Assembly: GCA_027051905.1 (NCBI GenBank)
Contig: JALUGO010000027.1
Location: forward strand, 1-64,000
DNA: 64,000 bases
Direction of reading: 5' to 3'
Source: Desulfurobacteriaceae bacterium
GTDB lineage: Bacteria > Aquificota > Aquificia > Desulfurobacteriales > Desulfurobacteriaceae
Shown: one piece after another, positions 23,072 to 25,562 of the stretch
Position numbering within the stretch: position 1 is the first letter of the stretch
Layout of the letters: each line of letters opens with the position of its first letter
The notes under the pieces: generated by a model
What the model was told of the DNA's origin: nothing
Databases searched by the model: none
The model's input: only the letters and a program-made list of their open reading frames with translations
Translations under genes and position numbers: made by a program

Positions 23072-25234
23072 CTAATGTTTTTGTCTTAAACGCTTAGCAA
23101 GATTAACAAGGTTTCTGAGAGCTGGAATAACCTCTTCCCAGCGCCTTGTTTTAAGACCACAGTCTGGATTTACCCAGAAGTTCTCTTTTGGAATCACCCT
23201 GAGAGCTCTATCAACAATCTCTTTCATCTCTTCAACAGTTGGGACATAAGGAGAGTGGATGTCCCACACTCCAAGGCCTATCTGTCTGTCAAAATTAACC
23301 TTTTCAAAGGCTTCTATGATGTCCCCCTTAGAGCGCGTTGCCTCAATGGAAATAACGTCAAAGTCCATGTCTAAAATGTACTCAATAATCTCTCCAAACT
23401 CTGAATAACACATGTGTGTGTGCACCTGAGTTTCCGGTTTAACTGAGGAGTGGCAGAGGCGGAAGGACTTAACTGCCCAATCAAAATATTCTTTCCAGTT
23501 CCTTTTCTTAATGGGAGCTTTCTCTCTGATTGCCGGCTCGTCTATCTGGACAATGCCAATTCCAGCCTTTTCATAGTCTGCAATTTCATCTTTCAGGGCA
23601 AGGGCTATCTGGTAAGCAACCTCTTCAGTCGGAATGTCTTCCCTTATATAGCTCCAGGCGATGATTGTTACAGGGCCTGTAAGCATCCCTTTAACGGGCT
23701 TTTCGGTAAGGCTCTGAGCGAAAGCTATCTCTCTGACAGTCATCTGACCTTCTCTTTCTACGTCTCCGTAGATGATAGGAGGCCTGTAACATCTTGTTCC
23801 GTAAGAGATAACCCAGCCGTTCCCGGTTGTTGCGATTCCCTTCATCTTCTCAGCGAAAAACTCAACCATGTCTGTCCTTTCAAACTCTCCGTGGACGAAG
23901 ACGTCTAAGCCGAGGTCTTCCTGTATCTGGATAGCTTTGGCTATCTCTCCTCTTATGAAGGTGTTGTAGTCTTCCTGAGAGAGTTTTCCTTTCCTGTAAA
24001 GGAGCCTTACCCTTCTAACTTCTTCTGTTTGGGGGAATGAGCCTATTGTTGTTGTCGGGAAGAGAGGAAGTTTGAATCTCTCTTTCTGAACTTTAACCCT
24101 TTCTCTGTATTCCGGCTTCCTGATGAAGTCCTCTTCTTTCAGAGAGGATACCCTTTCCTTGACATGGGGGAGCTCCCCAAAGGGAACGTTTATTCCCTTA
24201 ACCCACTCTTTCGCTTCCTCTGTTTTACCTGAAAGCACGTTGCTGATGAGTTTAATCTCTTTCAACTTCTCCTCTGCAAAGGCAACCTTCTGGAGAAGTT
24301 CTTCCGGAAGCGTTGCACCGGAGAGACTCACCGGGAGGTGAAAGAGAGGTGCTGCGTTTGCGATAACAACGTTCTCTCCGAGCTCTTTTACAAGTTCCGC
24401 TGTTTTAAAGAGGTCATTCCTCCAGACGTTTCTTCCATCAACAACTTCAGCAAAAAGGGTTTTGTCGTTTCTGTTTATCTCTTTAAGCTGTTTCAGATTT
24501 TCTCCTCTGTCGTGAACAAGGTCAACGCCAATTCCAGAAACGGGAAGGTTGAAGAGGAGCTCCAGCCTATCTACGCTGTCGTAGTAAGTAAAAAGGTTTA
24601 CAGAACAGTTTGCCTTCTCAAAGAGAGAGTAGGCCTCTTCAACAGCCTTCCACTCTTCGTCTGAAAGTTCCAAAACAAAGGCAGGGTCGTCTAAATGGAG
24701 TGATTTAAACTCTCTCTCATTTGCATATTCAACAAGGAGTTCCACAAGCTCTTTAAGGGCTCCAGCAAAGTATTCCGGCTTTAACCCTTTCGAGAGCTTT
24801 AAGAATGTAAATGGTGCAATAACGTGAACATTTTCCCTTGCTTCTTCGTGCCTATCCCACACGGATTTTGTTAGCTTAAACTGAGGTTTTCTACCTTCAA
24901 AGTCTGGAACGAGGTAGTGATAGTTTGTGTTAAACCACTTTGTCATCTCAAGGGCGTTTTTGCCCCGGCAGAGGTCGAAATAGCCGTCTAAGCTCTCTGC
25001 CGTGTAGACTCCAAAAAGAAGCGCCGTGTCAAGCATGGGATCGTAGAGGGTCATCTCTCCCTGAGGGTAGGAATCAACAAATCGGCTGTAGGTCTCCTCT
25101 CTCTTCTCGTTGAGTTTTTTAATTCCTGAGAGGAGTTCTTCTTCTGTAACCTTTCCAGCCCAGTAGCCCTCAATAAGCCGCTTGAACTCCCTCTGCTTTC
25201 CCAGTCTTGGGAAGCCGTAAGCGTAGGTTTTCAT
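23072..25234 (-). CDS. metE: Cobalamin-independent methionine synthase
   Basis: 720 aa. Transfers methyl from 5-methyl-THF-glutamate to homocysteine without B12. The N-terminal barrel starts YGFPRLGKQREFKRLIEGYW; the catalytic C-terminal barrel has TTIGSFPQTEEVRRVR near residue 395, IVQIDEPAIREKAP, the zinc ligands in HTHMCYSEF and EATRSKGDI, and a last Cys in NPDCGLKTRRW. ATG start with AGGAGGT six bases away; that site is buried in a riboswitch hairpin, so expression should fall when B12 is plentiful. This implies a B12-dependent MetH elsewhere. Confidence 0.96.
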   Translation of the reverse strand: MKTYAYGFPRLGKQREFKRLIEGYWAGKVTEEELLSGIKKLNEKREETYSRFVDSYPQGEMTLYDPMLDTALLFGVYTAESLDGYFDLCRGKNALEMTKWFNTNYHYLVPDFEGRKPQFKLTKSVWDRHEEARENVHVIAPFTFLKLSKGLKPEYFAGALKELVELLVEYANEREFKSLHLDDPAFVLELSDEEWKAVEEAYSLFEKANCSVNLFTYYDSVDRLELLFNLPVSGIGVDLVHDRGENLKQLKEINRNDKTLFAEVVDGRNVWRNDLFKTAELVKELGENVVIANAAPLFHLPVSLSGATLPEELLQKVAFAEEKLKEIKLISNVLSGKTEEAKEWVKGINVPFGELPHVKERVSSLKEEDFIRKPEYRERVKVQKERFKLPLFPTTTIGSFPQTEEVRRVRLLYRKGKLSQEDYNTFIRGEIAKAIQIQEDLGLDVFVHGEFERTDMVEFFAEKMKGIATTGNGWVISYGTRCYRPPIIYGDVEREGQMTVREIAFAQSLTEKPVKGMLTGPVTIIAWSYIREDIPTEEVAYQIALALKDEIADYEKAGIGIVQIDEPAIREKAPIKKRNWKEYFDWAVKSFRLCHSSVKPETQVHTHMCYSEFGEIIEYILDMDFDVISIEATRSKGDIIEAFEKVNFDRQIGLGVWDIHSPYVPTVEEMKEIVDRALRVIPKENFWVNPDCGLKTRRWEEVIPALRNLVNLAKRLRQKH

Positions 25235-25242
25235 GCTGCTAC

Positions 25243-25278
25243 CTCCTGTGGGTGTTTTGATTTCAACACCCGCAGGAG
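25243..25278 (-). promoter_or_regulatory. Expression-platform hairpin hiding the metE ribosome binding site
   Basis: Fourteen-base arms (25243-25256 and 25265-25278) with 13 of 14 pairs and an eight-base loop. One arm contains most of the AGGAGGT (25241-25247) that serves metE. Formation would block ribosome access, the usual translational output of cobalamin riboswitches in Gram-negative bacteria. Confidence 0.85.
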
Positions 25279-25364
25279 CTCCAAGGCGGGAAAAGAAAAA
25301 GGGATACCCTCTCCTTTCCCGCGCCCCGAACCCCCGCAGGACGCGAAGGGGTGGGTCTCCCCAC

Positions 25365-25540
25365 CCATCACGGGCCGGTCTCCCGGCTCGCAGGGTTTAT
25401 CAGGTCAGTGCCTTCCCAGAACGGTGGCTAAACACCTATCCGTTCCAGTGGCAAAGACCCATAGTTTTTCCCTGCTCACGGTTGCGAGGACAGCGCCGGA
25501 CTTTCACCGGACTTCCCGTTCACCCGTGACAGGCAACAAT
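25365..25540 (-). promoter_or_regulatory. Cobalamin riboswitch aptamer (metE leader)
   Basis: On the minus strand the leader shows the conserved order of a B12 aptamer: GGGTGAACGGGAA, then CCGGTGAAAGTCCGG, then the CTGTCCTCGCAACCGTGA segment, a variable arm, GGGAAGGCAC, and the B12 box GCCGGGAGACCGGCC (25373-25389). About 300 bases of leader without a gene separate metE from the small ORF upstream, and the aptamer plus platform fill it. Boundaries are approximate. Confidence 0.93.
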
Positions 25541-25562
25541 TTATGCTGATAACAGAAAAATG

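Follow-up and report, generated by a model that had tools for sequence, protein, structure and literature searches.

A cobalamin aptamer and a probable translational OFF switch in the metE leader of a Desulfurobacteriaceae bacterium

The metE leader and its cobalamin aptamer

The window, a stretch of 64,000 nucleotides from a Desulfurobacteriaceae bacterium (genome G000), carries on its minus strand an open reading frame (25234-23072) that was identified as MetE, the B12-independent methionine synthase, by its match to NF003556 (907.6 bits, cut-off 541). The leader of this gene, taken as the minus strand from about 25545 down to the ATG at 25234, begins with a cobalamin aptamer. This is followed, in the 3' direction, by hairpin H1, hairpin P13 with its loop L13, hairpin H2 and a hairpin over the Shine-Dalgarno (SD) sequence, H3. 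The features of the locus, listed with the evidence for each, are:

25356..25542, minus strand: cobalamin aptamer RF00174 (cmscan 95.5 bits, full-length)
25483..25490, minus strand: core of loop L5, UCCUCGCA, proposed kissing partner of L13 (sequence; UCCUC in 14/14 metE leaders)
25373..25389, minus strand: B12 box, GAGCCGGGAGACCGGCC (sequence; within the RF00174 alignment)
25349..25366, minus strand: hairpin H1, between the aptamer and P13 (compensatory changes at several pairs, 13 leaders)
25320..25345, minus strand: hairpin P13, CGCGUCC with GGGCGCG, the latter GGRCGCG in relatives (sequence and alignment)
25328..25337, minus strand: loop L13, GCGGGGGUUC, complementary to L5 or, alternatively, to the anti-sequestor (sequence, duplex estimates)
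25286..25322, minus strand: hairpin H2, a purine arm with a pyrimidine arm (free and constrained folds; alignment)
25272..25281, minus strand: anti-sequestor, GAGCUCCUGC, 10 pairs with L13, overlapping the 5' arm of H3 (alignment; folding with shuffle controls)
25243..25278, minus strand: SD hairpin H3, the sequestor, 13 pairs (fold; conservation; SD opening cost)
25241..25247, minus strand: Shine-Dalgarno sequence of metE, AGGAGGU (sequence)
23072..25234, minus strand: metE, B12-independent methionine synthase, 720 amino acids (NF003556)

The RF00174 match, obtained by running cmscan against Rfam, covers the full length of the model (1-189) at 25542-25356 on the minus strand, with 95.5 bits (E 1.6e-22) against a curated cut-off of 31.5 bits. 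RF00174 was the top family of its clan at this position, under permissive settings too, and related families scored lower. The initial annotation had proposed a B12 aptamer in the metE leader, and had named an Rfam covariance-model run on the minus strand as the check and the lack of a match as the outcome that would speak against it. The match obtained is well over the cut-off, GAGCCGGGAGACCGGCC lies exactly at 25373-25389, where the B12 box had been placed, and the gene downstream of the leader is indeed metE. The 361-nt metE leader folds at z -6.9, beyond chance. The preferred ligand is probably adenosylcobalamin, a form that can probably be made because a BtuR adenosyltransferase is encoded in the genome.

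A TAAA(A)TT-like motif is found directly 5' of the aptamer (about 25547-25540, minus strand) in most metE and btuF leaders. Judged by its letters, this motif is possibly a -10 element; a consensus promoter scan reported no promoter on the minus strand. Just upstream of the aptamer, a short open reading frame (25676-25560, minus strand) encodes a membrane-like peptide of about 38 amino acids, and its WYLLDELY motif and KKKK end are common to five members of the genus.

The Shine-Dalgarno hairpin is kept in intact leaders that carry the aptamer

Local folding gave a hairpin at 25243-25278 with two 14-nt arms, 13 pairs and one C-A mismatch, the same coordinates and pairs as had been described initially, and this hairpin (H3) is stable by itself. 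A 66-nt segment that includes it has a minimum free energy of -25.8 kcal/mol (z -3.7 against shuffles). The AGGAGGT had been described as contained in the hairpin, which is true of AGGAG, five of the seven SD bases, which lie in the stem; the last GU falls just outside.

The conservation of H3 was examined in a comparison set of 24 genomes of the order, G000 among them, from which 14 metE leaders were collected, 13 of them intact and one, from G018, with a deletion. H3 is kept in the 13 intact leaders, where all predicted pairs are standard and a U-A pair is exchanged for C-G as a compensatory change. At 60 °C, opening the SD around H3 was estimated to cost 8.1-10.3 kcal/mol in the 13 intact riboswitch leaders and 1.2-3.4 kcal/mol in seven aptamer-less metE leaders, i.e., the SD is predicted to be open in the latter (folding energies at 60-70 °C are extrapolated). 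H3 is missing from these aptamer-less leaders.

A candidate competing partner for the Shine-Dalgarno hairpin

L13 is invariant across the 13 intact leaders and P13 is nearly invariant, as is expected because these strands have two partners. L13 is complementary to the L5 core over 8 pairs (duplex estimate -11.8 kcal/mol), which predicts, from complementarity, a kissing loop with the aptamer. The alternative partner of L13 is the anti-sequestor, with which it has 10 complementary pairs in 12 of the 13 intact leaders (six of them with a bulge) and 6 pairs in the leader of G019. As L13 is invariant, compensatory change cannot probe this alternative pairing. The GCG at the base of H2 is at the same time the last part of the 3' strand of P13, and full H2 and full P13 are therefore mutually exclusive. 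The pairing of L13 with the anti-sequestor goes beyond what had been noted initially and is, on modelled folds, a good candidate for the competitor of the SD hairpin. Several microRNA families were matched over H2 at low Rfam scores, far under their cut-offs and typical of any long hairpin, and these matches were rejected.

The output region of each leader was folded freely and with an imposed bound state, in which P13 is formed and L13 is unavailable; the kissing-loop state was imposed rather than predicted because the folding program cannot model kissing loops. In the 13 intact leaders, the extrapolated cost of opening the ribosome footprint at 60 °C was 3.4-6.3 kcal/mol in the free state versus 9.6-13.7 kcal/mol in the imposed bound state. 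The bound-minus-free difference was 6.2-8.9 kcal/mol at 60 °C and 5.9-9.2 kcal/mol at 37 °C, in 13/13 intact leaders at either temperature. The G018 leader (L012) lacks the H2 3' arm together with a part of H3; here the difference was approximately zero and the SD was predicted to be open in both states. The deletion is possibly an assembly error (the assembly is 62% complete).

The dependence of this difference on sequence was evident when H2 and the spacer were shuffled in five leaders: the mean difference at 60 °C was then 1.7-2.6 kcal/mol, and only 0-2 of 100 shuffles reached the real value. Shuffling only the seven bases 5' of CCUGC mattered in four of the five leaders and had little effect in that of G019. 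The SD is still partly paired with the P13 5' strand in the minimum-energy fold of the free state, at an opening cost (1.8-3.9 kcal/mol at 60 °C) near that of the riboswitch-less leaders. At 37 °C, H3 retains about half of the free ensemble of G000.

Proposed mechanism and alternative explanations

Computation established the aptamer, the conservation of the helices, the pairings that exclude each other and, as described below, the co-occurrence with MetH. These results are consistent with a model in which the metE leader is very likely a translational OFF cobalamin riboswitch with a switching step at L13. When cobalamin is bound, L5 of the aptamer would kiss L13 and P13 would be locked; the anti-sequestor would then be left free, H3 would form and MetE would remain untranslated. 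When cobalamin is absent, the L13 strand, stacked on full H2, would pair with the anti-sequestor, i.e., the 5' arm of H3, and with this arm taken the SD would be released and MetE made. Such a switch would turn metE off when B12 is available, leaving methionine synthesis to the B12-dependent enzyme.

A translational output is favored over a transcriptional one because no terminator-like site was found 3' of the aptamer and because the SD is covered by the final hairpin, which is conserved. An output that is mainly transcriptional would have cobalamin favor termination at the U-rich arm of H2, or via Rho once translation is blocked, with H3 in a secondary role. The 3' arm of H2 is U-rich, as this would need, and the metE platform of Mycobacterium tuberculosis is apparently reinforced by Rho-dependent termination or mRNA decay (PMC11260477). 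However, a consensus terminator scan found no intrinsic terminator in the platform 3' of the aptamer, and H3, which is strongly conserved, has the SD at its end and no U tract. The U tract of H2 was itself rejected as a terminator: no terminator-like site was found there, and the tract lies within the stem, with CCCGC after it in every intact leader. A mainly transcriptional output is consequently regarded as unlikely.

It is more improbable still that H3 serves as a constitutive brake, or that its structure depends on heat, without coupling to an aptamer that acts on P13. The stability of the hairpin on its own would suit such an arrangement, as would the fact that the bound state of the folding test was imposed, but H3 is missing where the metE leader has no aptamer, and 12 of 13 leaders keep L13 as a rival partner of the H3 5' arm, in a pairing that depends on the sequence of H2 and the spacer. 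Finally, relics of the riboswitch before both metE and btuF in a related genome (G022) raise the question of whether the copy in the window has likewise decayed and no longer responds. This is scarcely credible, given that its score of 95.5 bits is the second-highest for RF00174 among the 24 genomes of the order, that its platform helices are intact and that the genome has genes for MetH, BtuF and BtuR.

Distribution of the riboswitch, MetH and cobalamin supply

RF00174 was found in 16 of the 24 genomes of the order, usually twice per genome, before metE and before the btuF-btuC transporter. MetH is encoded in exactly these 16 genomes, although the 24 genomes are related and so amount to fewer than 24 independent observations, with the absences of MetH and RF00174 falling in four genera. 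In the wider phylum, RF00174 was found in 19 of 136 genomes, and the three of these that lie outside the family also carry it before btuF; the spread of the platform beyond the family was judged from this search together with the metE loci of other groups without RF00174.

Two departures from the common gene content are informative. G022 is without MetH, yet it retains BtuR and the B12-dependent ribonucleotide reductase NrdJ, and the cobalamin riboswitches before its metE (L046, 200 bases) and btuF (L158) are decayed relics. In G010 and G019, MetH and the metE switch are present and the NrdJ matches are only weak and partial, and probably reflect a class I enzyme. Together, these patterns imply that the switch follows MetH rather than general B12 use. 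BtuF-like proteins were observed in genomes G011-G014 of genus g3, despite the absence there of MetH, BtuR, NrdJ and cobalamin aptamers.

The initial annotation had predicted from the leader that the organism would possess MetH and a supply of B12. The former is encoded in G000, and the latter looks like import rather than synthesis, with BtuF and BtuR present and neither CbiB nor CobS found. B12 is probably imported because CbiB was found in 0 of the 24 genomes; this absence across the order is stronger evidence than single absences in G000, such as that of CobS, as that genome is only about 84% complete. Synthesis as the source of B12 was rejected on the same two absences. The simplest reading of the supply is probably cobalamin import followed by adenosylation; the btuFCD genes of G000 have their own, second cobalamin aptamer.

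The MetH of G000 (C11:33976-36495) matches positions 2-869 of a 1182-position model, and its reactivation domain is therefore missing. A search for this domain as a separate protein (PF02965) gave no match in the 24 genomes and missed Thermotoga maritima too; a divergent, separate reactivation domain could still exist.

Comparison with known cobalamin riboswitches

The mechanism is already known from published metE switches, and the switch described here adds no new one. In M. tuberculosis, an anti-TIR element of the metE leader occludes the translation initiation region when ligand is bound; in the free state, its partner is an anti-anti-TIR, and the loop of the latter's hairpin is what L5 pairs with in the bound state (PMC11260477). 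The gene and the logic are the same as in the present case, but the lineage and sequence are different, upstream open reading frames also modify expression in M. tuberculosis, and the long extra hairpin between P13 and the SD hairpin (H2) is found here and not there. The M. tuberculosis switch has been tested experimentally, whereas the present one is known from computation. In Priestia megaterium metE, L5-L13 kissing stabilizes P13, and without ligand the bases on the P13 side pair with the 5' side of the output hairpin, with an intervening structured region on top (PMC10653944). The L5-L13/P13 logic and the topped free-state helix are thus shared with the leader described here; the output hairpin is a transcription terminator in P. 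megaterium and an SD hairpin here. Escherichia coli btuB is likewise a translational OFF switch in which cobalamin leads to an SD-hiding stem by way of anti-SD and anti-anti-SD sequences (PMC11162775), albeit in front of another gene and with another platform sequence.

Full-text searches of the open literature found no paper joining cobalamin riboswitches with Thermovibrio or Desulfurobacterium, and no earlier description of a Desulfurobacteriaceae metE switch. The leader is a textbook example from a thermophile lineage, and its anatomy, with exclusive helices and a competing strand, is unusually easy to read. Natural controls are at hand in the relatives without MetH, the decayed copy and the leader with a deletion, and a heat-stable platform might help to trap the bound and free states.

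The btuF riboswitch and the L5 base

The btuF riboswitch of the same genome (L002) has the aptamer family and the L13 core, GCGGGG, in common with the metE switch. Its platform is short, however: P13 adjoins the SD directly, and H1, H2 and H3, all present before metE, are missing. L5 reads UCCUC in 14/14 metE leaders and UCCCC in 15/15 btuF leaders, opposite the same L13 core. The kissing duplex was estimated at -11.8 kcal/mol for metE, which has one G-U pair, versus -14.8 kcal/mol for btuF, and is thus about 3 kcal/mol weaker in metE. It is conceivable, if somewhat doubtful, that the two switches are set to different thresholds via this one kissing-loop base; in that case, more B12 would be needed to shut off MetE than to shut off the importer. 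In the btuF leaders (L002 and others), P13 runs right up to the SD, and about 31 bases separate the aptamer match from the start codon.
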